Of a stretch of 13,090 nucleotides of DNA, positions 1 through 13,090 are shown in pieces; the first letter of the stretch is position 1, and each line of letters starts with the position of its first letter. Position numbers and translations under genes: made by a program. Where the stretch lies: positions 1 to 13,090 of the forward strand of contig JAIPJR010000070.1 in the NCBI GenBank assembly GCA_021734045.1, read 5' to 3'. Source of the DNA: Fidelibacterota bacterium (GTDB lineage Bacteria; Fidelibacterota; UBA8477). A model generated the notes under the pieces. It worked only from the letters and a program-made list of their open reading frames with translations, was not told where the DNA came from and did no database searches.

Positions 1-2229
1 CGCACCAAAGTCGGAAATCCAGCTTACATGCTCATCGTCCCAGGTGCTGGTGCCACTGGTATCAACAACCAGGCCTGTGATGTCGGAAACATCAGAACCG
101 CTGGCTGTCACGGCGTAGAGTGCACCATGGGAATACATACCACCATAAAGTTCATCAGCACCATCGCCATCCAGATCCGCAGTCACGGTACCAGCGTAAC
201 TGACGCCATCCTGCAGGGATGAATCTAACCAGGCGTAGGTCTGAAACTCATAAGTGTTGGCATCGGTTGCTTCTACGATGTAGAGACCAGCGTGATCCCA
301 TGCAGAGAAGAGCACTTCTTTCATGCCATCACCGTCCAGGTCACCAACGGAGCCACCCCAGGGTGATCCGCCGAAGACACCATCGCTCTGACGGGCCATA
401 AACTCATTTACTGAACTGTAAAAGCCTCCACTGAATTCTCCATCAACGGAGAGAATCAGAAAGACATCAAAGTCATTGTTTGAACCATTATTGGCAATCA
501 ACAATTCCTGTTGACCATCGTCATCCGGATCGCCGATACCAAAGGATTCAAAACGATAGCGATCGGGTTCGCCGCCATCAATCTGAATAGGTAACTGGTA
601 ATAGGTATAGCCATTATCTGTGCCATCCCATTCCCAGACGTGGACACCATTTTGTTCACCCGGGGCGCCAGCCTGGACGTAAATGAATTCGCCGTTGCCG
701 TTGCCATCCAGGTCACCTGTGACCACATACCGGGGGGTTGAGCCATAGGATGTAACCGTATCTTCTGTTGAGAAGACCCATTCCAGTGTGTTGTCGCCAA
801 TGACCTCATAGACATGGATGCCTCTATTGGTGTAGTCCGTAATGGCGATTTCGGGTTTGCCGTCACCATCCAGATCGGATCCGGCGTGTACACCACGGGT
901 CTGCCAGCCGGGATTATCATCGTTAGCAACGATATAGTTCACCGTGCTGGGCGCATAATCAAAGGCATCATGTTCTAACATCATGGCTTTGGGAACATCG
1001 CGGGAGACCACAAAGATTTCATCAATACCATCTTTGTCAAAGTCGCCTACTGCAACATCCTGCCAGCGGTCGGTACCACCGGTGCTGGTGAGTTCATAAG
1101 CATCCCAGGAACCGGGATCGCCTACGGCACCACCATTATACTCGAAGTCCAGAATCTGGCCCTGAGCAGCAGTATTACCGTAAGCGGCGATTACATCCAA
1201 ACCGTCAGCAGTCTGCCAGACATCCGGATTGCCAACTTTGGCGCCACGGAAGCCCAGAGAATCGCCCCACCAGAGTTCATGGAAGTCTGTGGAGGGATCC
1301 CAGGCACTCAGGTCACCACTGTTGGTGTAAAGAAAAAGTCCACCACCAACTGAGGGCAGAATGATTTCTGTGTAACCGTCACCGTCGAAATCAGCGGCGT
1401 CCAGACCACGCAGAGAGCCACCATCGGTTTCGGTGATGTCATCCGACCAGTAGATATTAGAATAGGTGTCTTCGCCATCAACTTGGTAGAAAGCGATACC
1501 ATTAAAGTCCCACTCTACCAGTGCGAAATTATTGGTGCCATCCGCATCGAAATCACCAACAACGGCACCATAGGCGGTGTAGCCCAGTGTAGAGTCTACA
1601 AACTCCGTTTGCCAGTTGGGGAATTCAAAGTTGGAGCTGGGATCCAATGAGAAAATAAAGACATAGTCGTTGTCTGTCTCATGCATCAGGATCTCAGTTA
1701 CACCGTCATCGTCCAGGTCGCCAGCCCAAAGACTGGAGACTGAACCACCCGTTCCAACACCAGCAATGGTCAGGGGTTGGAAAGAAGCGACGCGATTCAT
1801 GTTGAAATCTTCACTCAGGGTGTCGTATTCGAATACGAAAAAGCCCTGCTGGGTGGAAGTGGCATCACCACCAACCAGCAGTTCGGGCAAGCCATCAGAA
1901 TCCAGATCCACCATCTGGTCCGCAGCTTCAAAACTGTAGGTCACATCGGTGATATTGTGGGTCCAAACTTCATCCCAGGTATTGTTCCCTGTGACCTCGA
2001 ACAGATGTAGCGTGATGCCATTGTCGTCGGTGTAACCCAACATTTCATTGTTGCCATCACCATCCAGGTCAAAGGGACCACTAACACCCCAAAACACGTC
2101 GCCGTCTTCAGTGTTGGTCATCGACCAAACTTCACTGAAGCTGTTCACGCCATTTCCGCCTGCGAAGGCGAAGCCGGCAAATACGACTAGCGATAACGCG
2201 ATTGTCCATTTAGGTAGCGTTGTACGCAT
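1..2229 (-). CDS. Secreted FG-GAP/VCBS-type repeat protein, C-terminus cut off by window edge
   Basis: The frame is open for 743 codons from the ATG at 2229 to base 1, with no stop, so the 3' end is missing. Residues 1-23 form a signal peptide (MRTTLPKW, hydrophobic core, then FAFA before GG), so the protein is exported. The rest is a series of about eleven acidic motifs of the type D-[LFP]-D-x-[DN]-G followed by a hydrophobic strand, starting near residues 54, 108, 171, 226, 280, 396, 452, 506, 567, 630 and 685. This is the calcium-loop pattern of FG-GAP/VCBS repeats, which fold as beta-propeller blades; spacing of about 45-65 residues fits one blade per motif, with one longer gap between 280 and 396. 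The start is supported by AGGAGG four bases upstream. It is transcribed divergently from the receptor operon. Function is unknown; adhesion or ligand display at the surface is plausible. A C-terminal sorting domain could lie beyond the window. Confidence 0.9.
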   Translation of the reverse strand, partial: MRTTLPKWTIALSLVVFAGFAFAGGNGVNSFSEVWSMTNTEDGDVFWGVSGPFDLDGDGNNEMLGYTDDNGITLHLFEVTGNNTWDEVWTHNITDVTYSFEAADQMVDLDSDGLPELLVGGDATSTQQGFFVFEYDTLSEDFNMNRVASFQPLTIAGVGTGGSVSSLWAGDLDDDGVTEILMHETDNDYVFIFSLDPSSNFEFPNWQTEFVDSTLGYTAYGAVVGDFDADGTNNFALVEWDFNGIAFYQVDGEDTYSNIYWSDDITETDGGSLRGLDAADFDGDGYTEIILPSVGGGLFLYTNSGDLSAWDPSTDFHELWWGDSLGFRGAKVGNPDVWQTADGLDVIAAYGNTAAQGQILDFEYNGGAVGDPGSWDAYELTSTGGTDRWQDVAVGDFDKDGIDEIFVVSRDVPKAMMLEHDAFDYAPSTVNYIVANDDNPGWQTRGVHAGSDLDGDGKPEIAITDYTNRGIHVYEVIGDNTLEWVFSTEDTVTSYGSTPRYVVTGDLDGNGNGEFIYVQAGAPGEQNGVHVWEWDGTDNGYTYYQLPIQIDGGEPDRYRFESFGIGDPDDDGQQELLIANNGSNNDFDVFLILSVDGEFSGGFYSSVNEFMARQSDGVFGGSPWGGSVGDLDGDGMKEVLFSAWDHAGLYIVEATDANTYEFQTYAWLDSSLQDGVSYAGTVTADLDGDGADELYGGMYSHGALYAVTASGSDVSDITGLVVDTSGTSTWDDEHVSWISDFGA

Positions 2230-2239: not shown

Positions 2240-2337
2240 CTTTTTGGTTATTTTGAACCCGCCCCTGATTTCCTCTTTACCAATAGCCGTTGACTTTCTG
2301 GTACGAGCAGGCTCCAAATTTTCATTTTTGTGTGAGG

Positions 2338-2366
2338 AATCTACCGCTTGCCTCCTGCCAATTCAA
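2338..2366 (-). promoter_or_regulatory. Weak candidate sigma70-type promoter for the FG-GAP gene
   Basis: On the minus strand there is TTGAAT (plus 2361-2366), a 17-base spacer and TAGATT (plus 2338-2343). Each hexamer matches the sigma70 consensus at four of six positions, and the spacing is ideal. It would give a leader of about 100 bases. Such matches are common by chance, so this is only a candidate. The rest of the intergenic stretch from 2230 to 2427 shows no gene and no strong hairpin. Confidence 0.3.
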
Positions 2367-2427
2367 GTAAAAATGCGGTTCAGGGTAAACATTAGTTCAT
2401 TTAATCTTATTAACAAACCAGCGTTTA

Positions 2428-2456
2428 TTGACAAGTGTCACACCGCCGACTATATT
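2428..2456 (+). promoter_or_regulatory. Sigma70-type promoter of the receptor-exoprotein-PorV operon
   Basis: A perfect -35 box TTGACA (2428-2433), a 17-base spacer and TATATT (2451-2456, five of six consensus positions) lie just upstream of the first receptor gene. Transcription would start near 2463 and give a leader of about 30 bases, long enough only for the ribosome-binding site. This is the only strong promoter match I found in the window. It probably drives the whole three-gene operon. Confidence 0.75.
2429..2440. promoter_or_regulatory. Inverted repeat over the -35 box, possible operator
   Basis: TGACA-AG-TGTCA is a perfect five-base inverted repeat with a two-base centre. It covers most of the -35 hexamer and the start of the spacer. 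That position is typical for a repressor site, but the repeat is short and part of it is forced by the -35 consensus. No regulator gene is present in the window. Confidence 0.35.
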
Positions 2457-2494
2457 GGCCGCCAAATCGGATAAGAAACAGGGTGGAGTAACCA

Positions 2495-5400
2495 ATGAAG
2501 AGAGCCTCTCTCCAGATAACAAAACTTTTTATCAGACATCTCATCGTGCTGGGATTTTTCACATTTAGCACGGCAATTTATGGTAGCACGAGTGGGAAAA
2601 TTTCCGGACGCGTTACCGACGCTGAAACCGGTACACCTCTCCCGGGCGTCAATGTCGTTCTGGAAGGGGAGACACTGGGCGCCAGTACGGACATGAATGG
2701 CATGTACTATATCATCAATGTACCGGTGGGCGTCTACAATGTACGCGCCAGTATGATGGGGTACGCTGAAACGCGGGTCAATGACGTAAAGGTACTGGGT
2801 GACCTGACCACTGAAGTCAATTTTAACCTCACAACACAGGTACTGGAAGCTGGCCAGGTGGTTGAGGTGGTAGCCGAGCGTCCCATGGTTCAAAAGGATC
2901 TAACCAGTGGTCGCTCAATTGTTAGTGCCGAAGATATAAAAGAAATGCCGGTGGAGTCGGTGAGCGGTATTATCGGTACCAAAGCGGGGGTCGTGACAGG
3001 TACGGATGGTGCCATTCATATTCGTGGCGGACGATCCAGTGAAGTGTCCTATATGATAGATGGCGTTCCCATGACCAATCCGGCCTGGGGTGGACTTTCT
3101 TCCGGTGTGGAGAATAATGCCGTACAAGAGCTGCAAATTCTCAGCGGAACCTTCAATGCTGAATATGGTCAGGCTATGTCCGGGGTGATTAACATCGTCA
3201 CCAAAGAAGGAGCGACGAAATTTCAGGGCTCCCTGTCGGGCTATGTGGGCGATTATTACACCACCCATACCGATGTTTTTGAGTATGCAGACCAGTTTAA
3301 AGCTACGAATATCCGTAATGTAGAGGGATCGCTTAGCGGTCCGGTTCCGGGCTTTGGGAAGAGCCTGTCCTTTTTTCTCTCGGGGCGCTACTATGAAAAT
3401 GGCGGATATTTACGCGGTGTCCAGGAGCATGTGCCCGGAGATGTGAATTATCTGTCCACGCGAACGGTGGAAGAGCTGCTTAACTCGCCCTATGGCAAGG
3501 CAGGGTTACTGAATGTGGCCGAACCTTTTGATGATTTAAATGGAGATGGCACGATCGAACCTGGCAGTGAACCTTATATCGATTTTGACGGTAACGGCCG
3601 TTACAACCCCGGCGAACCATATCGTGATGTGAATGGCAATGGTCACTACGATCATCCGGGCGTGGACTTGGATGGTGACGGATTCCTGAATCCGGAAGAA
3701 TTGGAATTTATCGATCTTAACGGGAATGGTGTTCTGGATGGTGACCCATTCCACGATTACAACAATAATGGTGTACTGGATGGCGAACCATTCATCGATT
3801 TTAATGGCAATGGTGTCTGGGACAGTGGTGCCGGTGGATCGGGTGAAGTCGTACGGATGAATCATTCCCAGCGGATGAATCTGAATTCCAAGCTAACTTG
3901 GCGAATCACGCCCAAGATGAAGCTTAACTATAATGTATTATACAATACGGGGATGAGTCAGGATTACAGTCTGGCTTACAAGTACAATCCCCTGGGCCGT
4001 GGCACCAATGACTCTTACTCGATTTCCCATATCCTGGATTTCACGCATTCGCTTTCGAACAGCTTCTTCTACAACCTAAAGGGCTCCTATTACGAATCGG
4101 AATCCAAAACCTACTACCGTGATTTGCTGCCCAATGAGTTGACGCTTGATGACCAGAAGATTTTCTCCACTCTGGATGAGTTGAAATCCTATGCGCAATC
4201 AGAGGACTTGGAGAGTGGGAAATGGTATGGCAATGCCAGTGATTCATTATTGATTCTAAGGGTTGATGTTTCGCTGATTAACAGTGTCTCCGGTATAGAT
4301 TTCCGGCTCTCCAATCCTGAAAGTAACACTTATACTGTGGGCGACAGTCTGGGGACAACCGAGGTTGATTTTGTAGGCTTATTGGAGTGGATGAAAGGAC
4401 AATGGGGGAATAGCGGATGGGAAATTACTGCCGATGTGACCCTGAGTGATGTGAAAAACAATCTTTTCCTGCCGAACACCATCACTTTCTCACCACCCAA
4501 TGAGTACTATGGCGGTGGCCATAATGCCGGCTACACCTGGCGGAAAAATCAGACCCTTTACCTAAGTGGATCGCTCACCTGGCAGTATAACAATACGCAT
4601 CAGATTAAAGCTGGCCTGGGATACAAGAGCCATGTGATGAATTACCGTACCTTTACAACCGAGGTTAGCAGCTCTACCGGCTGGATTCCGGATGGGAAAA
4701 CTCCTGAGACCAGCTATTCCAACGATAGCTACACCAACTGGCTAAGCGATCGAGCAAAAGTAGGCACTATCGCTCAAAACGATCGTCAGCCACAAGAATA
4801 TTTTGCTTATATCCAGGATAAAATCGAGCTGGTGGATATGATTGTGAATGTGGGCTTGCGGTATGATTACTTCAACCCCAATTACTATGTCCCCGGAGAT
4901 TATAAGGACCCGGACAACCCCCGTTATTATCTCTACACCACCGTTGATTCGGTGGATGGAATGGCCTTTGTAGATACAGCGCTGGCTTCAGAGCGGGAAT
5001 ACCAGGGTGCCGGAGAGGTGATTGATACGCTCAATGCCACCGGTGGTCAATGGCAGACTTATGAGGACTTTTACCAGTATGTAGACCCGGTTCACCAACT
5101 GAGTCCGCGTATTGGTGTTGCTTATCCTATTACAGATAAAGGCATCATTCACTTTAGCTATGGCCACTTTTTTCAGATTCCCACTTTCGCTTACCTGTAT
5201 GCCAATCCGGAATTTGAAATCGCCGGTGATAATCAGTCCATTTTGGGAAATGCTGCCCTGAAACCGCAGAAGACGGTAAAGTATGAAATCGGTTTGCAGC
5301 AGGAACTGGCGCCGGATCTGGCGATTGAGATCATCGCTTTCTATCAGGATTTTTCCGGACTACTGAGTTCTGAGCTCAAAGAGACCTACAACGGAACACG

Positions 5401-6031
5401 CTATTCCATTTATGCGAATTCCGATTATGGAAACAGCCGCGGTGTAACCTTTTCATTGACCAAGCGACGTACCGGTCTTTTCTCAGCGGCGCTGGATTAC
5501 ACCTATCAGATTACCAAGGGAAACGCGTCAGATCCGCTGGAGCAATTTTACGCCAATCAGTCTGATCCACCCCAGGAAGTACAAAAAAAGATTGTTCACC
5601 TGAATTGGGATCAACGTCACACACTCAACACAAACCTGACGCTGTCCGAACCCAATAATTGGGGCGTGAGTCTGCTGCTGCGGTACGGTTCGGGATTACC
5701 CTATACACCGTCCGTGCAGGGGTTCCAATTGGACAAACCCAATTCGGACCGGAAGCCGGATGAATATTCGGTGGATCTGAATACCCATAAAGATTATACC
5801 ATTATGGGAAAGCAGGTGGTGTTTTTTGCCAAGATCTACAACCTGTTTGACACCATGAACGAACGGGTAGTGTTTAATGATACCGGTCGGGCGACGTACT
5901 CGTTAATTCCCACCTACACGCCTGACAAAGGGAACGAACCCGGGCGACACAGTTTGGCCGATTATTTAAACCGTCCCAGTTATTTCAGTGCACCACGCCA
6001 GTTCCGCGTTGGCTTGCAGTTCGGGTTATAA
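2495..6031 (+). CDS. TonB-dependent receptor with N-terminal carboxypeptidase-regulatory-like domain and calcium-type repeat insert
   Basis: This 1178-residue outer-membrane protein has a signal peptide (residues 1-30) and a carboxypeptidase-regulatory-like beta-sandwich (about 34-112, GKISGRVTDAETGTPLPGVN). A possible TonB box follows near 121-131 (QVVEVVAERP), then a plug domain (about 133-240, with IHIRGGRSSEVSYMIDG and NAEYGQAMSGVINIVT), then a long beta-barrel ending in the typical RQFRVGLQFGL. This is the SusC-like arrangement; such receptors use TonB energy to import bound ligands or, in some cases, to work with surface proteins. Residues 344-446 are an unusual insert of acidic D-x-N-G-N-G repeats, just after the first barrel strands and probably in an extracellular loop. 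The start has GGAG six bases upstream. It is the first gene of an operon with the exoprotein nine bases downstream. No SusD gene accompanies it, so the substrate is unknown. Confidence 0.93.
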   Translation: MKRASLQITKLFIRHLIVLGFFTFSTAIYGSTSGKISGRVTDAETGTPLPGVNVVLEGETLGASTDMNGMYYIINVPVGVYNVRASMMGYAETRVNDVKVLGDLTTEVNFNLTTQVLEAGQVVEVVAERPMVQKDLTSGRSIVSAEDIKEMPVESVSGIIGTKAGVVTGTDGAIHIRGGRSSEVSYMIDGVPMTNPAWGGLSSGVENNAVQELQILSGTFNAEYGQAMSGVINIVTKEGATKFQGSLSGYVGDYYTTHTDVFEYADQFKATNIRNVEGSLSGPVPGFGKSLSFFLSGRYYENGGYLRGVQEHVPGDVNYLSTRTVEELLNSPYGKAGLLNVAEPFDDLNGDGTIEPGSEPYIDFDGNGRYNPGEPYRDVNGNGHYDHPGVDLDGDGFLNPEELEFIDLNGNGVLDGDPFHDYNNNGVLDGEPFIDFNGNGVWDSGAGGSGEVVRMNHSQRMNLNSKLTWRITPKMKLNYNVLYNTGMSQDYSLAYKYNPLGRGTNDSYSISHILDFTHSLSNSFFYNLKGSYYESESKTYYRDLLPNELTLDDQKIFSTLDELKSYAQSEDLESGKWYGNASDSLLILRVDVSLINSVSGIDFRLSNPESNTYTVGDSLGTTEVDFVGLLEWMKGQWGNSGWEITADVTLSDVKNNLFLPNTITFSPPNEYYGGGHNAGYTWRKNQTLYLSGSLTWQYNNTHQIKAGLGYKSHVMNYRTFTTEVSSSTGWIPDGKTPETSYSNDSYTNWLSDRAKVGTIAQNDRQPQEYFAYIQDKIELVDMIVNVGLRYDYFNPNYYVPGDYKDPDNPRYYLYTTVDSVDGMAFVDTALASEREYQGAGEVIDTLNATGGQWQTYEDFYQYVDPVHQLSPRIGVAYPITDKGIIHFSYGHFFQIPTFAYLYANPEFEIAGDNQSILGNAALKPQKTVKYEIGLQQELAPDLAIEIIAFYQDFSGLLSSELKETYNGTRYSIYANSDYGNSRGVTFSLTKRRTGLFSAALDYTYQITKGNASDPLEQFYANQSDPPQEVQKKIVHLNWDQRHTLNTNLTLSEPNNWGVSLLLRYGSGLPYTPSVQGFQLDKPNSDRKPDEYSVDLNTHKDYTIMGKQVVFFAKIYNLFDTMNERVVFNDTGRATYSLIPTYTPDKGNEPGRHSLADYLNRPSYFSAPRQFRVGLQFGL
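3524..3832 (+). repeat. Seven tandem acidic D-x-N-G-N-G repeats coding a calcium-binding-type insert in the receptor
   Basis: About seven in-frame units of 14-15 residues, with the pattern [FY]-x-D-[FLVY]-[ND]-G-[ND]-G-x-[YLW]-[DN]-x-G-E-P, span residues 344-446 of the receptor. Examples are FIDLNGNGVLDGDP and FIDFNGNGVWD. The spacing of Asp, Asn and Gly resembles EF-hand or dockerin-type calcium loops, without the flanking helices. The units differ at DNA level, so this is an old protein repeat, not a recent slippage product. Confidence 0.8.
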
Positions 6032-6035
6032 GGAG
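6031..6035 (+). promoter_or_regulatory. Ribosome-binding site of the exoprotein gene overlapping the receptor stop codon
   Basis: AGGAG begins on the last base of the receptor's TAA and lies five bases before the ATG at 6041. The overlap suggests translational coupling between receptor and exoprotein, consistent with proteins made in fixed ratio. Confidence 0.75.
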
Positions 6036-6040
6036 TTCGC

Positions 6041-9000
6041 ATGCGGAAAATCATATTAATTATCACCTTTACTGCCCTGGCACTCACTGCCGCAGACCGG
6101 GGAACGATACAAATGCCCACACCACCTGAGAGCAAATCAGACGTGGTAGGTTGGAATCTGTACAATGCCAAAATGAAGCAGATTCATCGCATGAGCAAAG
6201 CGGCAGCGCGCAGCGATCGGGCTTATAATTTCCATAACGGGAATCAGGTGAGAACCCTCTTCTATAACTATGGTTCTATCGGGAAACCGAATACCGAGCC
6301 TTCGATGGAATGGCCGATTGGATCCGGACGCGGTTATGCCTTTGAGTTTGGTGTGGTGGCTGGTGCGGAGGTTCCCACCTATGGGGGTGATACAAAACGC
6401 ATTGTCATTGACGGCCTTACGGTTGCCGGTGTCAGTGGAAATAACCCGGCAGGTACGCCTAATGATTGGGAGCCCCTGCCAGGATACAACGATCCATTTG
6501 TTCATAAAATTGCCATGAGCGACAGTCCTGATGAAGACAGAGATCCCGATGCGCGACCCGATACCTGGCCGCCCTATAAAACCTCTAATAATCCATTCTG
6601 GTATCAGATAAATGACGCTACCAATCCTGATTATCCGGGTAAGTTCGTCTGGCCGGGTGAATACGGACGGGGTGTTACAACGGCTGATCAGGAATCCTAC
6701 TACGTGATGGATGACAGCTATGTTTACCGCCACAATTCATATCCCTGGACCGGTGAGTTACGGGATGACGAATTTTACGCTGATTTGGGTAATCCTGACC
6801 GGGGTGGAATTGGTCTGGAAGTGGAATCACGGGGTTACCAGTGGATTGCTACACGGGCACAGAATGTGATTTTCTTTATCTACGAGCTGGAAAATACCGG
6901 CGGGGACACGCTTGAAAGCGTCTATTTTGGCATGTATGGTGACCCCCATATCGGTGGCGCCAATGATTATAGCGATGATGATGCCTATTACGATACATAT
7001 GTTGATATGGTCTATGCCTGGGATGACAATGCCAGGGGCGGACCGGAATTTGCCGACATTATCCCCGGCTTCTTTGGTTACAAGTTCCTGGAATCACCTG
7101 GTGAGCCATACGATTTTGTTGATAATGACCAGGACGGCATGGTGGACGAATCCATGCAGGATGGCATTGACAATGATGGTGATTGGCGACCCTTTGATGA
7201 CTACAATAACAATGGGCAGTGGGATCCGGGAGAAGCCATCAATGATGATGTGGGTACCGATGGTCTGGGTCCGGAAGACCCGGGCTATCCCGGACCGGAT
7301 GCGGATTACACCGAAGCCAACGGACGGCCTGATGATGGAGAGCCCAATTTTGATCAAACCGACTTGGACGAAGCTGACCAGATCGGATTAACGGGTTTCA
7401 TCGTTGAGCAGTATTCGTATAATGGTGTTGATGATAACACATTTTTCAATCGGTTGGCTGCGCCCATCATCGACTCCACATTCCAACAGCGCTCAGACAA
7501 CATTTTTCTCTATAGCTCAGGTCCTCTGAAAATGGCACCGGGAGACCGGCGTCGTTTCTCCATTACCATGTTATTTGGGTATAACATTACAGGCGCCACA
7601 GGCGTTGACCTGCACGAAAATCCGCACAATACCCGGGATCTCTATGCCACAGCGAATGTGGTGCAGGATATTTACAATGCCGGATACCGGTTCACCCGTC
7701 CGCCCCTAAAACCGCGGATTACAGCCGTTCCAGGAGATGAACAGGTTACATTGTATTGGGACGAAGGGTCGGAGCACTCCAAAGATCCCATTTACGGCAA
7801 CGATTTTGCCGGATATGCCATTTATCGTGCTACTGATTTTGGGTTCGAAGAGGTGAAATCAATCACGGATGCATACGGTAGTCCCTATCTGTGGAAGCCC
7901 ATCGCAAAGTTTGACAAAATAGATAGCTGGCGAGGACCACATCCGATTGAACAGGTGGTGGGGTCCGGACTCCATTACGACATGGGTAGTAACACGGGCC
8001 TGGTTCACAGTTTTGTAGATAAAGATGTGATTAACGGTCAACGCTACTACTATGCGATTTGTGCATATGACACGGGTTCCGTTCGGGATACCATTCCACC
8101 CACCGAAACATCCAAAAACATTCAGGAAACCTTCTCCGGTGAAATAACACTGGACATCAATACGGCTGTTGTGACGCCGGCTGCGCCCTCTGTGGGCTAT
8201 GTTGCACCGGAAGTGCTGATTTCCGATGATGTGAGTGAAAATCCCGGAACCGGTAGCGTGGAAGTAAAGATTATTGATCCCATGCAGGTGCCCCATAACC
8301 GGGAATATGCAATCCGCTTTGTGGACAGTCGTACCGATATGGTGGACAACGATGGGGATTGGAAATCGTTCATGGACGATACACTCTTTATACCGGTGGG
8401 GTCTTATGTCACTTTGATAGTTCCGCCCACACCGGATACGGTAAATTTTGTACAGAATCAGGACACAACCGTAGCGGTTACCGGTGCAGTAGGTGAACAT
8501 TTTGTCTACAGTGGTTTATGGTGGGAAATTAATCAGCTCATCAGTGGTACCCTGAAAGACTCAGTTATTATACCGGATACCACCATCACAGTGCTTCCAA
8601 CCCTGGATATCTGGAATCCGCTCACGGACGGCTCTGTGAACCAGGATGTGGGAATGGATGGTTGTTCGGATATCTATGAAATCTCCGGTGGCGGTTGCTC
8701 CGACGCGCCCATTGCCGGTGTGAATCCAGGTGACGATCCTCACGGTGACAACTGGCATCCGGTGTTGAATCCTGGTGGCACCGAGGCCAATGGCCGTCCA
8801 GACGCTGGTGAGCCTAATGTTGATGACAATGACATTCAGGAGAAAGTCCGGGAAACGCAGTACTTCCAGCTCTGGGATATCACGGATCCCGCAGATGAAT
8901 TAATCGTGCTGGATCGTCAGGACGCTCTCCAGGGTGAGGATAAAAACCATATTATGAATGGTTTGCAGGTTTTCGTCCACAATGATGTGGTGGCTCAGGA

Positions 9001-10789
9001 TTCCGCCAATACAGGCTGGATTTCCGGTAATGCCAGTTGGGATGCAAATATCACTTTATCACGCATTAATAATGTTGACGGGATTCCCTTCCCCGGGAAT
9101 TACCAGATTCACTTAACAGCAGACACGGCTGATACCATCGTTCTTCCCTCACCGCGACCCATAACATTTTATGTGATGGAGACCCTGAGTGGTGACACAC
9201 TGGATATCGGAGCCCTGTCGCTGAATGGGACAACTTTCGGTTTGACAACGGCGCTCATTCCGCTCATGTATGAAACCGATGATAAAACGGGGAATTATTA
9301 CCGTACCTGGGATATCAGCTTTCGACCACGCACGCCGGGTATCAGTGCGATTGTCCCCGATGAAAATGGCTTGCTTATTGGAACACGTGGCGTCACGAAT
9401 CCCAATATCCCGGCCAATGGTCTGCACTATTATAGTCCCGAAACCGGTGGTTGGAAGCACTGGTCCAAAGCATCCACCGGCGGAAATCTGATTGACAATA
9501 CCATTTACGATATCAAGTCCGTTGGATCAGCGTGGTGGATTGGTACTGGGTGGGGACCGGTGGCCTTTGATGGCATTCACTGGTATCGTAATTTCCAACT
9601 GGAAACCCTCTTCGATATTCTCAACGGGGGTGTAGAGGATTTGTCCAATCCAGAAGCGAGTCGCCGCTTTGAAGCCTGTATCGCTATCGCCACAGACCAG
9701 CAGGGTTACATCTGGTTGGCCACTGCTAAAAAAGGGCTGGTGCGGGTGAATACCAATGGGACACTGGAGACCAGTCTGGACGATGAAATTGTCCAGTACA
9801 CGACGCCGGCCACCGTGGATATTGACATTACCACACGGGCTGTGCGGGATATTTTAGTGGATGATCAAAACCGATTGTGGATAGCCACTGAAGCTGGTTT
9901 GGTAATCTACGATATCGATGCTGATAGCTGGTCCACCATTAAAAAGACCAATGACAATGGATTGCCGAACAACAATTTCCAGACGGTTTATCAATTACCG
10001 GATGGAACAATCGTGGTAGGCACCTCTTTGGGGTTAGCCTTTAAAGTTGACGATAATTTCGTCACCTACGATGATCTGCCCAATAAAACCGTTTACAGCT
10101 TCTATTATGATGAAGCACAAACGGGAAAAACCTTGTGGGTAGGCACGAAAAAAGGCTTCGCGACCATCGACCTCACGAATGCAGGAACTGACTATGCTGG
10201 TTTAACAACAACACAATTTGAAGCCAGTTACGGTGACACCAGCATTTCCCAGGATGCTGATATTCGCTCGATTTTGTTTATCGATGGGGAAGGTTGGTTT
10301 GGCACCAATGCCGGCCTGGAACACCGCATTACGGAAGAGGATTGGGATAGCTTCGGGCCTGAGCCTGGTGATGTCTTTCAATACAAAACCCGCATGCCCT
10401 TCAGTGCAATGGATAGTTACAAATTCACAACCAGTGGGGGACAGGAATCCGCGGAACTGGTGAAAAATGATTTAGACCAAGTGGCCGTGGTACCCAACCC
10501 CTATGTGGCAACAGCGACCTGGGAACGCAAGCCATACCTGCAATCGGGGAGGGGTGAGCGGAAAGTGTATTTCATTAACCTTCCGCAGGAATGTACCATC
10601 CGGATCTATACAGTGAGTGGAGAATTGGTGCGAAAAATCGAACACAGCAGCACGGTTTATGACGGCAGTGAGCCATGGGACTTGCTGAATAATGATAATC
10701 TGGAGGTGGCGTATGGTATTTATGTCTACCATATCGAGTCACCTGAATCAGGTGCTGAAACCATCGGCAAACTGGCGCTGATTAAATAA
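6041..10789 (+). CDS. Very large secreted exoprotein: FN3-like domain, seven-bladed regulator-type propeller and C-terminal sorting-like domain
   Basis: This 1582-residue protein begins with a signal peptide (residues 1-18, MRKIILIITFTALALTAA). Residues 20-350 are an uncharacterised Trp/Tyr-rich region. Acidic calcium-type motifs occur at 358-447 and again, split, at 769-932. An FN3-like domain lies at about 554-685 (VTLYWDEGS, GYAIYRATDFGF, RYYYAICAYD). Residues 1101-1440 contain seven units of the two-component-regulator propeller type (IWLATAKKGLVRV, LWIATEAGLVIYD, LWVGTKKGFATID). The C-terminal 100 residues (1481-1582) carry VVPNPY, CTIRIYTVSGELVRKI and a final GKLALIK, resembling FlgD-Ig-like or type IX secretion sorting domains. 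Cys875 and Cys886 could form a disulfide. No kinase or membrane segment follows the propeller, so it is a surface or secreted protein, not a sensor kinase. It sits between a TonB receptor and a PorV-like protein, its likely partners. Ligand and exact role are unknown. Confidence 0.88.
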   Translation: MRKIILIITFTALALTAADRGTIQMPTPPESKSDVVGWNLYNAKMKQIHRMSKAAARSDRAYNFHNGNQVRTLFYNYGSIGKPNTEPSMEWPIGSGRGYAFEFGVVAGAEVPTYGGDTKRIVIDGLTVAGVSGNNPAGTPNDWEPLPGYNDPFVHKIAMSDSPDEDRDPDARPDTWPPYKTSNNPFWYQINDATNPDYPGKFVWPGEYGRGVTTADQESYYVMDDSYVYRHNSYPWTGELRDDEFYADLGNPDRGGIGLEVESRGYQWIATRAQNVIFFIYELENTGGDTLESVYFGMYGDPHIGGANDYSDDDAYYDTYVDMVYAWDDNARGGPEFADIIPGFFGYKFLESPGEPYDFVDNDQDGMVDESMQDGIDNDGDWRPFDDYNNNGQWDPGEAINDDVGTDGLGPEDPGYPGPDADYTEANGRPDDGEPNFDQTDLDEADQIGLTGFIVEQYSYNGVDDNTFFNRLAAPIIDSTFQQRSDNIFLYSSGPLKMAPGDRRRFSITMLFGYNITGATGVDLHENPHNTRDLYATANVVQDIYNAGYRFTRPPLKPRITAVPGDEQVTLYWDEGSEHSKDPIYGNDFAGYAIYRATDFGFEEVKSITDAYGSPYLWKPIAKFDKIDSWRGPHPIEQVVGSGLHYDMGSNTGLVHSFVDKDVINGQRYYYAICAYDTGSVRDTIPPTETSKNIQETFSGEITLDINTAVVTPAAPSVGYVAPEVLISDDVSENPGTGSVEVKIIDPMQVPHNREYAIRFVDSRTDMVDNDGDWKSFMDDTLFIPVGSYVTLIVPPTPDTVNFVQNQDTTVAVTGAVGEHFVYSGLWWEINQLISGTLKDSVIIPDTTITVLPTLDIWNPLTDGSVNQDVGMDGCSDIYEISGGGCSDAPIAGVNPGDDPHGDNWHPVLNPGGTEANGRPDAGEPNVDDNDIQEKVRETQYFQLWDITDPADELIVLDRQDALQGEDKNHIMNGLQVFVHNDVVAQDSANTGWISGNASWDANITLSRINNVDGIPFPGNYQIHLTADTADTIVLPSPRPITFYVMETLSGDTLDIGALSLNGTTFGLTTALIPLMYETDDKTGNYYRTWDISFRPRTPGISAIVPDENGLLIGTRGVTNPNIPANGLHYYSPETGGWKHWSKASTGGNLIDNTIYDIKSVGSAWWIGTGWGPVAFDGIHWYRNFQLETLFDILNGGVEDLSNPEASRRFEACIAIATDQQGYIWLATAKKGLVRVNTNGTLETSLDDEIVQYTTPATVDIDITTRAVRDILVDDQNRLWIATEAGLVIYDIDADSWSTIKKTNDNGLPNNNFQTVYQLPDGTIVVGTSLGLAFKVDDNFVTYDDLPNKTVYSFYYDEAQTGKTLWVGTKKGFATIDLTNAGTDYAGLTTTQFEASYGDTSISQDADIRSILFIDGEGWFGTNAGLEHRITEEDWDSFGPEPGDVFQYKTRMPFSAMDSYKFTTSGGQESAELVKNDLDQVAVVPNPYVATATWERKPYLQSGRGERKVYFINLPQECTIRIYTVSGELVRKIEHSSTVYDGSEPWDLLNNDNLEVAYGIYVYHIESPESGAETIGKLALIK
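7112..7381 (+). repeat. Acidic calcium-type motif block, copy 1, in the exoprotein
   Basis: Residues 358-447 contain DNDQDG, DNDGDW (377-382), DYNNNGQWDPGE, then TEANGRPDDGEPN (424-436) and an acidic tail. The Asp/Asn/Gly spacing resembles calcium loops. A diverged second copy lies about 390-490 residues further on. Confidence 0.65.
8345..8836 (+). repeat. Acidic calcium-type motif block, copy 2, split by extra sequence
   Basis: DNDGDW (769-774) and TEANGRPDAGEPN (914-926) repeat the two landmarks of copy 1 in the same order, with NQDVGMDG matching NDDVGTDG between them. The landmarks are about 98 residues further apart than in copy 1, mostly because of a beta-rich Thr/Val segment (about 783-860). 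Codons differ between the copies, so the duplication is old or the motif was recruited twice. Confidence 0.6.
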
Positions 10790-10794
10790 GGAGG
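10788..10794 (+). promoter_or_regulatory. Shine-Dalgarno site that decides the start of the PorV-like gene
   Basis: AAGGAGG overlaps the last two bases of the exoprotein stop codon. Two ATG codons follow back to back at 10797 and 10800. The site is two bases from the first and five from the second, so the second is favoured, matching the four to six base spacing of the other genes here. Confidence 0.7.
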
Positions 10795-10799
10795 CTATG

Positions 10800-11840
10800 A
10801 TGTTGAAGAAAATTCTACTCGTATTAATGGCCGGCCTGATCAGCGTTTCATTTGCGCAGAATAAAGTCGGTACCACTGTTGCTCAATTTCTGAAAATCGG
10901 CGTTGGCAGTCGCGCCAATGGTATGGGCGAAGCCTTTGTTGCTTTAAGTGATGACGCGTCCGGATTATTCTGGAATCCGGCCGGTATCTCGCGGGCCGGG
11001 GCGACAGAATTCATGTTCGTCCACACCCAGTGGATTGCCGATATTGGTTTTGACTATGTGGGCGTCATTGTACCCATGTATGGAATTGGAACGGTTGGCG
11101 CCAGTCTCACATCGTTAACCATGGCGGATATGCCGGTTCGAACCGAGACACAGCCCAACGGCACAGGGGAGAAATTCTCAGCCAGCGATCTGGCGATGCA
11201 AATCTCGCTCGCCCGGAATCTGACAGACCGATTTTCTATTGGATTCAATGCCAAATTCATTCGACAAAGTATTTGGCACATGAGCGCTCAGGGAATGGCC
11301 ATTGATGTAGGGACATTATTTACAACCCAGTTCCATGATATGCGGTTGGGCATGAGTATTTCCAATTTTGGGACCTCCATGCAAATGTCGGGTCGCGACG
11401 CCCTGGTCACCTATGACCCGGATCCGGAAGCTGAAGGAAATAACCCGCTTATCCCGGCCTATCTGGCGATGGATGAATCGGCCCTGCCACTTATGTTCCG
11501 CGTGGGCGTGGCTATGGATGTGTGGAGTCAGGGATCCTCGAAACTCACCGTCGCTGTGGATGCCCTGCATCCCAATGACAATTACGAGAGTTTGAATATT
11601 GGAACCGAACTGAATATCGCCAATCTTGTTTTTCTGCGTGGTGGGTGGAAATCGCCCTTCGTGGAGACCAATACCGCCAGCAGCACTGAAAATTGGGAGG
11701 ATCGCGAAGAGGGTTTCACGGTTGGTGCCGGCGTGGATATTCCGCTTATGGGATCAAGTGGTCTGAAATTTGACTATTCATTTGCGGATTTCGGCCGTTT
11801 GAAAAACGCGCAACGCTTTACGCTGAATCTCTATTTTTAA
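10800..11840 (+). CDS. PorV/PorQ-family outer-membrane beta-barrel protein
   Basis: From the preferred ATG the protein is 346 residues; the ATG at 10797 would add one Met. It has a signal peptide (MLKKILLVLMAGLISVSFAQ) and then the family's hallmark N-terminus, with FLKIGVGSRANGMGEAFVA and DDASGLFWNPAGI. Alternating hydrophobic strands follow, ending in RFTLNLYF with a terminal aromatic residue typical of outer-membrane barrels. Known family members have a FadL-like barrel. PorV in type IX secretion shuttles proteins bearing a C-terminal sorting domain from the translocon to the attachment complex, while PorQ has a related role. The gene directly follows an exoprotein with such a C-terminal region, which suggests a dedicated partner, although many FCB genomes have several PorV-like paralogues of unknown role. 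It is the last gene before a terminator. Confidence 0.9.
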   Translation: MLKKILLVLMAGLISVSFAQNKVGTTVAQFLKIGVGSRANGMGEAFVALSDDASGLFWNPAGISRAGATEFMFVHTQWIADIGFDYVGVIVPMYGIGTVGASLTSLTMADMPVRTETQPNGTGEKFSASDLAMQISLARNLTDRFSIGFNAKFIRQSIWHMSAQGMAIDVGTLFTTQFHDMRLGMSISNFGTSMQMSGRDALVTYDPDPEAEGNNPLIPAYLAMDESALPLMFRVGVAMDVWSQGSSKLTVAVDALHPNDNYESLNIGTELNIANLVFLRGGWKSPFVETNTASSTENWEDREEGFTVGAGVDIPLMGSSGLKFDYSFADFGRLKNAQRFTLNLYF

Positions 11841-11964: not shown

Positions 11965-11997
11965 AAGGAATCCGGTCTTTTGCCGGATTCTTTATTT
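11965..11997 (+). terminator. Rho-independent terminator after the PorV-like gene
   Basis: A perfect 8-base stem GAATCCGG (11968-11975) and CCGGATTC (11983-11990) encloses a 7-base loop. It can be extended by one G-T and two A-T pairs (11965-11967 with 11991-11993) and is followed by TTTATTT. It lies 125 bases after the PorV-like stop and 17 bases before the next start codon. The stretch from 11841 to 11964 holds no gene and no promoter I can recognise. Confidence 0.8.
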
Positions 11998-12014: not shown

Positions 12015-13090
12015 ATGCTGAAAAAAGGGGCTAAAGCACTTTTACTGGGATTGATTTTTCCCGCCTTCCTGTTTGCCGGCACGACCGGAAAAATTTCCGG
12101 TCTGGTCACAGATGCCGATAGCGGTGAGCCACTAATCGGAGTGAATGTGGTGGTGTCAGAATTAGGAACCGGCGCTGCCACAGGATTGGATGGGCGCTAC
12201 ATCATCCTGAATGTTCCCCCGGGAATATATGAGGTTCGCTTCTCAATGATTGGCTATACCCAACATAATGTTGAAGGCGTCCGCGTAATGGTGGACCTCA
12301 CCACCACATTGGATGCCCAATTGGGCACCAGTATTATCGAAGGTGAGGCGGTGACGGTTACAGCCGATCGTTCCATGGTGCAGGCAGATATTACCTATTC
12401 ACAATCCAATATCAGCGCGTCAGACCTGAGTGCTATGCCCGTGGAGGAGTTTGAAGAGGTAATCTCACTCCAGGCTGGTGTCGTGCAGGGGACCGGCGGT
12501 GAAATTCACATCCGTGGTGGCCGTTCCTCAGAAGTGGGCTATATGGTGGATGGTATTTCCGTTACTGATCCCTACACCGCCTCCATGGCGATTGAAGTGG
12601 AAAATAATGCCATTCAGGAGTTGCAGCTCATCTCCGGTACATTTAATGCCGAATATGGTCAGGCTATGTCCGGTATTATCAATATCGTCACCCGCGAAGG
12701 GGACATGAAAAAATATGGTGGCAATATTGACTTTCGCATCGGGCGTTACGCATCCACTGATCCCAAAATCTACTTTGGAAGCCTGCCGGACAGCATGTAC
12801 GCCAAAACCGGTGCTGATAATATCAATCTATTGGGTGTGGGAGAAGGGTTCACGCCGACACTTTTGAATGACATTCAGGGCAGCATCAATGGTCCCATAC
12901 CGGGCATGAATGGTAAAGCCTCGTTCTATCTCTCCGGTCGCTACTACCGTGGCGACGGCTATCTGTATGGCATTCGCCAGTTCAATCCGGAAAGCTACAC
13001 CTGGAGTGTGTCCAATTCTCAAGCGGTCCCCAACACTGAGTATTATTTGGATTACGAGGATATCGGTATTGATAACTGCACCGATGAGTT
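12015..13090 (+). CDS. Second TonB-dependent receptor, paralogue of the first, C-terminus cut off by window edge
   Basis: The frame is open from the ATG at 12015 to the window end (358 full codons). It has a signal peptide (residues 1-21, MLKKGAKALLLGLIFPAFLF), a carboxypeptidase-regulatory-like domain (about 25-103, GKISGLVTDADSGEPLIGVN), a linker with a possible TonB box (EAVTVTADRSMV), a plug (about 125-230, IHIRGGRSSEVGYMVDG, NAEYGQAMSGIINIVT) and the first barrel strands. The order and many motifs match the receptor at 2495-6031, so the two are paralogues. GAGGG four bases upstream supports the start. The sequence ends near YLDYEDIGIDNCTDE, at about the place where the first receptor has its calcium-type insert, so a similar insert may begin here. 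No clear promoter was found; expression may depend on read-through of the hairpin just upstream. Confidence 0.92.
   Translation, partial: MLKKGAKALLLGLIFPAFLFAGTTGKISGLVTDADSGEPLIGVNVVVSELGTGAATGLDGRYIILNVPPGIYEVRFSMIGYTQHNVEGVRVMVDLTTTLDAQLGTSIIEGEAVTVTADRSMVQADITYSQSNISASDLSAMPVEEFEEVISLQAGVVQGTGGEIHIRGGRSSEVGYMVDGISVTDPYTASMAIEVENNAIQELQLISGTFNAEYGQAMSGIINIVTREGDMKKYGGNIDFRIGRYASTDPKIYFGSLPDSMYAKTGADNINLLGVGEGFTPTLLNDIQGSINGPIPGMNGKASFYLSGRYYRGDGYLYGIRQFNPESYTWSVSNSQAVPNTEYYLDYEDIGIDNCTDE

Follow-up and report, generated by a model that had tools for sequence, protein, structure and literature searches.

The 13,090-bp stretch of Fidelibacterota DNA analysed here (the window) carries at positions 2,495-11,840 a tight three-gene operon encoding a TonB-dependent receptor (TBDT), a large exoprotein (EXO) and an outer-membrane barrel of the PorV/PorQ family. 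On balance, we favor the interpretation that this trio is a glycan-uptake module resembling SusC/SusD; its surface protein would be exported by the type IX secretion system (T9SS), and a PorV-family barrel dedicated to it would hold it in place. The computed evidence comprises the gene order and its conservation, the inheritance of the genes as a unit, the predicted folds, the presence of SprA, PorU and TonB, the absence of SusD, and the gene neighborhood.

Organization, conservation and inheritance of the operon

The window spans the whole of contig C36, from a 2.5-Mb draft genome that is 92% complete, and the closest named relatives belong to Candidatus Neomarinimicrobiota. Three open reading frames (ORFs) were located on the forward strand at 2,495-6,031 (TBDT, 1,178 aa), 6,041-10,789 (EXO, 1,582 aa) and 10,797-11,840 (barrel, 347 aa). 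The gaps between them are 9 bp (TBDT/EXO) and 7 bp (EXO/PorV), and the Shine-Dalgarno sequences TAAGGAGTTCGCATG and TAAGGAGGCTATGATG overlap the preceding stop codons, confirming the gaps of about ten bases and the stop-overlapping ribosome sites described in the first-pass annotation of this DNA.

EXO homologues were detected in 59 of 60 relatives, and at least 557 EXO loci were matched in the collection. Gene order was scored for EXO genes with both neighbors on the contig, which were chosen by EXO similarity only and not by their neighbors. A TBDT directly upstream and a PorV-family gene directly downstream, all on the same strand, were found for 54/65 EXO genes in the relatives and for 71/74 in the named genomes (Neomarinimicrobiota, Calditrichota, KSB1, Ignavibacteria/Melioribacteraceae and others), with median intergenic gaps of 1.5-11 bp across trios. 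Since these homologues were not selected for their neighbors, the recurrence is more than chance would produce, and the order is not peculiar to this contig, being shared by FCB-group (Fibrobacteres-Chlorobi-Bacteroidetes) genomes from several phyla. The upstream TBDT was present in 62/65 of the relatives' loci, and in seven exceptions to the order one extra SurA-like gene of ~460 aa lay between EXO and PorV. SurA-like genes of 460-504 aa (L119, 9,823-11,214; L225, 13,168-14,682) occupy that position in a Neomarinimicrobiota subgroup and follow PorV in Ignavibacteria; a dedicated periplasmic chaperone is a possible role for their products.

Distances of the EXO core, the EXO C-terminal domain (CTD), the TBDT and PorV were correlated across 106 non-redundant triads, and none of 300 within-genome shuffles of paralogue partners reached the observed correlations for any pair, indicating that the trio descends as a unit whose partners are rarely exchanged. 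Five TBDT-EXO-PorV trios were identified in this genome, on contigs C36, C18, C9, C8 and C39. Two other loci were partial: contig C59 (L060, 1,111-6,267) has a TBDT and a PorV gene with no EXO and with a 141-aa, possibly transposase-like gene between them, and contig C54 (L062, 6,559-8,907), which ends 1.2 kb downstream, has an orphan EXO-like protein of 782 aa with a 52-bit CTD and no adjoining TBDT or PorV.

Probable type IX export and the PorV-family barrel

The T9SS genes that the first-pass annotation had proposed to look for are present in the genome: SprA on contig C3 (SprA_N, 132 vs 27 bits) and PorU (695 vs a cut-off of 420 bits), together with three TonB C-terminal domains and some 66 sorting domains of type A that pass the TIGR04183 cut-off. 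SprA was also found in 58/60 relatives. GldM (TIGR03517) gave no match in this genome, and none in any control genome either. Three streamlined members of the phylum with genomes of 0.9-1.0 Mb (G027, G045 and G051) have kept SprA and yielded zero or one weak EXO match.

EXO begins with a Sec-type N-terminal signal in which no lipobox cysteine was seen by eye, and it ends in a sorting-like domain (residues 1478-1582; 10,472-10,786, forward strand). The AlphaFold2 model of this CTD had a predicted local distance difference test score (pLDDT) of 79 overall and above 90 across most of the last 65 residues, and its best solved match was PorZ (5m11; E 6.5e-6, Z 11.1, 92 residues, 26% identity), with PorU (6za2) at Z 10.2. 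It also aligned to the seven-stranded Ig-like CTDs of mirolase (Z 8.2), NucA (7.6) and RemA (7.5), while type A CTDs bound in SprA-PorV complexes scored Z 7.3-7.6, a level that unrelated Ig-like folds reach too (about Z 7-8). When the CTD profile was compared with the PDB only PorU and PorZ were found, marginally (E 0.02 and 0.05), and the top NCBIfam names were PorZ, PorU and then TIGR04183, all below their cut-offs (PorZ equivalog, 48.7 vs 260 for EXO; PorU, 16.5 vs 420 for the CTD). No type B match (TIGR04131) was obtained in the window's EXO, and one relative scored 16.2 vs 35. The domain is therefore T9SS-like in its predicted fold, as the first-pass annotation had supposed from its sorting-like appearance, and did not group with unrelated families. 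Within this genome the CTD profile scored 74-212 bits for the five EXO domains, 52 bits for the C54 orphan and at most 27 bits for all others.

The third gene (10,797-11,840, forward strand) was likewise correctly recognized as PorV/PorQ-like, scoring 213.3 bits against a cut-off of 90 for NF033709 and matching the PorV of 6h3i in a phmmer search (E 1.6e-7). The canonical PorV, PorQ and PorV2 models were rejected for it (NF033710, 69.5 vs 250; NF033711, 96.4 vs 220; NF052325, 100.3 vs 325). Its NCBIfam matches were PorV/PorQ-type models and a sub-threshold BamG, with no assignment to the PorP/SprF family; Toluene_X reached 14.9 bits, below the cut-off, the PorV family being related to FadL.

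In this genome, a PorV-family gene came directly after every one of the five EXO-type CTDs above 70 bits and after 0/66 type A domains that passed the cut-off, adjacency of the latter being judged from hit positions (Fisher p = 7.7e-8). PorU is held at the surface by PorV and PorZ by PorQ (PMC7463736), and PorV extracts the cargo CTD from SprA (PMC10994853). In F. johnsoniae, a single PorV serves type A cargo; type B cargo, by contrast, mostly comes with a PorP/SprF barrel of its own, whose gene as a rule lies immediately downstream (PMC12618676), and PorP-like barrels anchor type B cargo (PMC9143113). From the CTD fold, the adjacency and these PorU/PorZ and PorP/SprF precedents we infer, by analogy, that the neighboring PorV-family barrel is the dedicated shuttle of EXO, and probably its surface anchor as well.

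EXO might instead be an ordinary type A-like cargo, cleaved by PorU and then attached to lipopolysaccharide or released, with the barrel being no more than a shuttle that is recycled, or a copy that raises gene dosage, and the TBDT importing by itself. The genome does encode PorU, the CTD has the type A Ig fold, and the common PorV of F. johnsoniae serves all type A CTDs (PMC12618676). This explanation leaves unexplained, however, why adjacent PorV genes go with the EXO-type domains and not with the type A domains of the same genome, why the EXO CTDs are nearest to those of the anchored PorU and PorZ, and why PorV, EXO and TBDT are inherited as units; we regard it as unlikely, although the least so among the alternatives.

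Together, the order kept across phyla, the unit inheritance, the presence of SprA and PorU, and the T9SS-like CTD fold support the dedicated TBDT-cargo-PorV module that the first-pass annotation had suggested. To call the module self-contained, as was also done, goes too far, since the SprA translocon is encoded elsewhere (C3).

Other cargo genes paired with PorV-like genes were observed in this genome. On contig C87 (L241, 6,628-12,313, reverse strand) a second PorU-like protein (1,561 aa, 200 vs 420 bits) has a weak PorV-like gene of 332 aa 1 bp downstream, and at L243 (2,362-5,398, reverse strand), L244 (6,780-9,658, forward strand) and L064 (8,717-11,325, forward strand) CTD-type proteins with no TBDT upstream are directly followed by weak PorV-family genes. 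Judging from these sequences, the rule that pairs cargo with PorV may extend beyond the trio.

The exoprotein core and sugar-utilization neighbors in relatives

The conserved core of EXO (about residues 57-707; 6,209-8,161, forward strand) matched no Pfam or NCBIfam family. Its AlphaFold2 model (residues 22-790; pLDDT 83, predicted template modelling score 0.82) is a super-beta-sandwich with DxDxDG loops at residues 361 and 387, which aligned to the N-domain of dextran dextrinase (Z 20.2, 261 residues, root-mean-square deviation 3.0), bacterial glucoamylase (Z 18.7), cellobiose phosphorylases (~18) and glycoside hydrolase (GH) family 116 (~17). The predicted fold thus resembles the non-catalytic domain of GH15, GH94 and GH116 enzymes; the parts matched are those that, in such glycoside hydrolases and phosphorylases, form the N-terminal domain and have no catalytic role. 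Foldseek matches had E values of 6e-6 and weaker, with global template modelling scores that were low (0.2-0.26), as is to be expected if a single domain matches. No catalytic barrel was seen in the core model, and the core sequence profile found a single, non-significant Fn3-like match in the PDB (E 0.29). The model suggests a ligand-binding, possibly carbohydrate-binding, fold.

The propeller that had given EXO its description as a giant propeller protein is confined to two-component-regulator repeats at about residues 1177-1333 (9,569-10,039, forward strand; Pfam and NCBIfam matches near residue 1270). These occur in the window's EXO subgroup only, Reg_prop matching 3/21 homologues, and the propeller was rejected as a defining part of the protein in favor of a subgroup add-on.

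In some cases the trio stands first in an operon that goes on with sugar transporters and with GH130, GH16 or GH3 genes. At the Ignavibacteriales locus L225 the trio is followed by the SurA-like gene, the gene of a solute-binding protein, two ABC permease genes and two genes of GH130, the beta-1,4-mannooligosaccharide phosphorylase family; homologues of the solute-binding protein were found in 21 loci and of GH130 in 14, including the Neomarinimicrobiota loci L110-L112 and L122. The 89 flanking proteins of the named loci included, by Pfam, 32 T9SS sorting domains, 10 CBM9, 9 solute-binding proteins, 7 GH16, 6 malectin, 4 GH3 and 3 GH9; Pfam counts were used because the C-terminal domain that these proteins have in common had raised the phmmer counts of GH16 and CBM9, and they indicate recurrence and not a measured enrichment. 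The earlier proposal of capture and uptake is in this way supported indirectly, by the predicted fold of the core and by the neighbors in relatives, while the flanks of the window's own trio lend it nothing. The ligand would accordingly be expected, though by indirect signs, to be a glycan.

The same three-part surface complex could alternatively bind another ligand (a protein, peptide, metal or hydrophobic compound) or act in adhesion or sensing, functions that the propeller and the calcium-type loops would serve. The window's copy, which has the propeller and lacks adjoining sugar genes, the FadL relationship of the PorV family (with the sub-threshold Toluene_X score), and a penicillin-amidase gene adjoining the trio in one relative are consistent with this explanation. 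We consider it rather unlikely, given that the super-sandwich core resembles accessory domains of glycoside hydrolases and that glycan-related neighbors recur.

The receptor and its relation to EXO

The TBDT (2,495-6,031, forward strand) has a signal peptide, a CarboxypepD_reg-like domain (residues 36-123), a plug (133-231) and a beta-barrel that extends to the C-terminus; it matched PF00593 (74 bits), Plug and CarboxypepD_reg. Calling it SusC-like, as had been done, was right as to the TBDT and loose as to SusC: the SusC/RagA model TIGR04056 scored 79.7 bits vs a cut-off of 368, and the alignment covered positions 2-241 of the 981 in the profile, the N-terminal carboxypeptidase-regulatory and plug part that is common to many TBDTs. 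SusD/RagB (PF07980) had no match in the genome, whereas the control Bacteroides genome did match. The window's pair was consequently rejected as a member of SusC/SusD, and the idea that EXO takes the place of SusD beside a SusC was not supported.

Between the plug and the later barrel strands the receptor carries an insert with seven DxDxDG calcium-type loops (residues 347-440; 3,533-3,814, forward strand). Such loops were found in all 106 EXO cores but in 35/106 receptors, so that the insert characterizes a minority of the homologues, and a calcium-loop "zipper" between insert and EXO was dropped as the loop counts correlated weakly and negatively (rho -0.26).

A role of the TBDT in export was also weighed, in which the receptor would help to secrete EXO with the PorV-family barrel as its partner. 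The model is Oar of Myxococcus xanthus, a TBDT with a similar N-terminal architecture that is required for PopC secretion (PMC6434023), and the co-divergence of TBDT and EXO would agree with it. Nevertheless, EXO has a T9SS-type CTD and the genomes retain SprA, while the sugar import genes that follow some triads suit import, so we judge an export function improbable.

The pairwise pattern of divergence was consistent with the core lying on the receptor. Across the 106 triads, the partial correlation was 0.47 between core and TBDT barrel and -0.04 between core and PorV; in 27 within-genome pairs it was 0.54 for core-TBDT, 0.52 for CTD-PorV, 0.49 for TBDT-PorV and -0.33 for core-PorV. As far as sequence divergence can tell, such values would fit a complex with the core docked on the TBDT and the CTD on the PorV barrel. 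That shared ancestry and co-expression alone have kept the genes in order, with no physical complex, is very improbable: unit inheritance can by itself yield correlated divergence, but the order is kept across phyla and paralogues while flanking genes vary, and the core tracks the separate TBDT protein and not PorV.

Other features of the window

A promoter-like site (TTGACA-17-TATATT; 2,428-2,456, forward strand) lies 39 bp upstream of the receptor gene and agrees with the consensus at 11/12 positions; as promoter-like matches in the window were no more numerous than in shuffles, it is a consensus pattern match only. A possible terminator between the two tandem modules, likewise a pattern match only, consists of an 8-bp inverted repeat followed by TTTATTT (11,968-11,990, forward strand; the scan itself listed this hairpin on the reverse strand).

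An ORF at 12,015-13,088 (forward strand) is the 5' part of a second TBDT and the start of a second tandem copy. Contig C18 begins inside a TBDT, followed by EXO (2,271-6,968) and PorV (6,975-8,024), and the truncated ORF is probably the 5' part of that TBDT. No common end sequence joins C36 and C18, and the tandem copy therefore rests on synteny in the relative G001, where two trios stand intact in tandem on one contig (C70, L137), as they do in other relatives. At the other end of the window, positions 1-2,229 (reverse strand) encode an FG-GAP-repeat secreted protein that runs on into contig C4 and ends there in a type A sorting domain; an exact 60-bp overlap between the ends of C4 and C36 indicates that these contigs probably adjoin.

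Proposed mechanism and comparison with known systems

In the glycan-uptake module that we favor, EXO would leave the cytoplasm by Sec and then pass through the SprA translocon of the T9SS. The neighboring PorV-family barrel would take its CTD over from SprA, in the manner of PorV with type A cargo, and would then keep it, so that EXO would stay at the surface like PorU on PorV or PorZ on PorQ. Positioned over the TBDT, the super-beta-sandwich core would bind an extracellular ligand, probably an oligo- or polysaccharide, and hand it to the TBDT for import with TonB energy. EXO would thereby do the capturing that falls to SusD, beside SusC, in better-known gut bacteria. Where the operons of relatives are fullest, the route would be completed by a periplasmic sugar-binding protein and two ABC permeases, along with phosphorylases or glycosidases. 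The window's own propeller-bearing copy would presumably have the same function.

Several points weigh against this reading. The window's EXO scored 12.6-15.7 bits for TIGR04183 (type A), below the cut-off of 23; the super-sandwich fold also has uses other than carbohydrate binding, and no binding site was recognized in the EXO core model. The flanks of the window's trio (the FG-GAP protein and the second module) hold no sugar gene, and Neomarinimicrobiota triads often adjoin unrelated genes, such as that of formamidopyrimidine-DNA glycosylase. The barrel could be recycled instead of retained. The pairwise divergence pattern is drawn either from 27 pairs or from distances that are not independent, with TBDT and PorV also correlated, and linked genes can co-diverge with no contact, linkage alone accounting for part of the signal.

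More tentative, though a serious possibility, is the general proposal that the trio represents a second, SusD-independent architecture for TonB uptake, widespread in the FCB group outside the classical Bacteroidota, in which a TBDT is combined with a T9SS-exported super-sandwich capture protein and a one-cargo PorV-family barrel as permanent anchor, so that a T9SS carrier would have become a structural subunit of an import complex. If so, a surface complex missed by current annotation would underlie uptake in marine and sediment phyla that are widespread and for the most part uncultured (Neomarinimicrobiota, Calditrichota, KSB1, Ignavibacteria): no family model covers EXO, and a search for polysaccharide loci by way of SusD would pass these genomes over. 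The "one cargo, one shuttle" principle of PorP/SprF would then apply to the PorV family as well, and protein export by the T9SS would be tied directly to nutrient import by TonB. The trio itself would be a simple marker for finding such loci.

The combination was not found described in the open-access literature, where the nearest arrangements are SprB-SprF, PorU-PorV/PorZ-PorQ, SusC/SusD and the SusD-less locus chu_1276-1280. Like SusC/SusD (RagA/RagB), the trio sets a TBDT with a CarboxypepD_reg-like N-domain beside a surface-binding protein, in tandem or multiple copies and in some cases by glycan genes; unlike it, the TBDT is far below the SusC/RagA cut-off, SusD is absent, the partner, instead of being a lipoprotein, is a large cargo of the T9SS type whose core is a super-sandwich, and a PorV-family barrel is nearly always added. 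The type B adhesin pair SprB-SprF (PMC12618676, PMC9143113) shares the dedicated FadL-type barrel gene directly downstream of a T9SS cargo, one per cargo, whereas the trio's barrel is of the PorV/PorQ family, its CTD is PorU/PorZ/type A-like, and a TBDT belongs to the unit. The T9SS attachment complex, in its pairs PorU-PorV and PorZ-PorQ, offers the best-matching CTD fold and a PorV/PorQ-family barrel that holds a surface protein, but EXO has neither the sortase domain nor the overall architecture of PorZ, and is TBDT-linked and encoded in many copies per genome. The SusD-less cellulose locus chu_1276-1280 of Cytophaga hutchinsonii also pairs a TBDT-like barrel with a glycan-binding surface protein other than SusD, the available part of its description reporting no PorV-family gene or EXO (PMC12016534). 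Oar of Myxococcus xanthus is likewise a TBDT with an N-terminal extension tied to a secreted protein, although it acts in export and, in the portion of that source consulted, no PorV-family partner is reported (PMC6434023). Each part of the trio is thus a known family or fold, and it is their combination that appears to be new.

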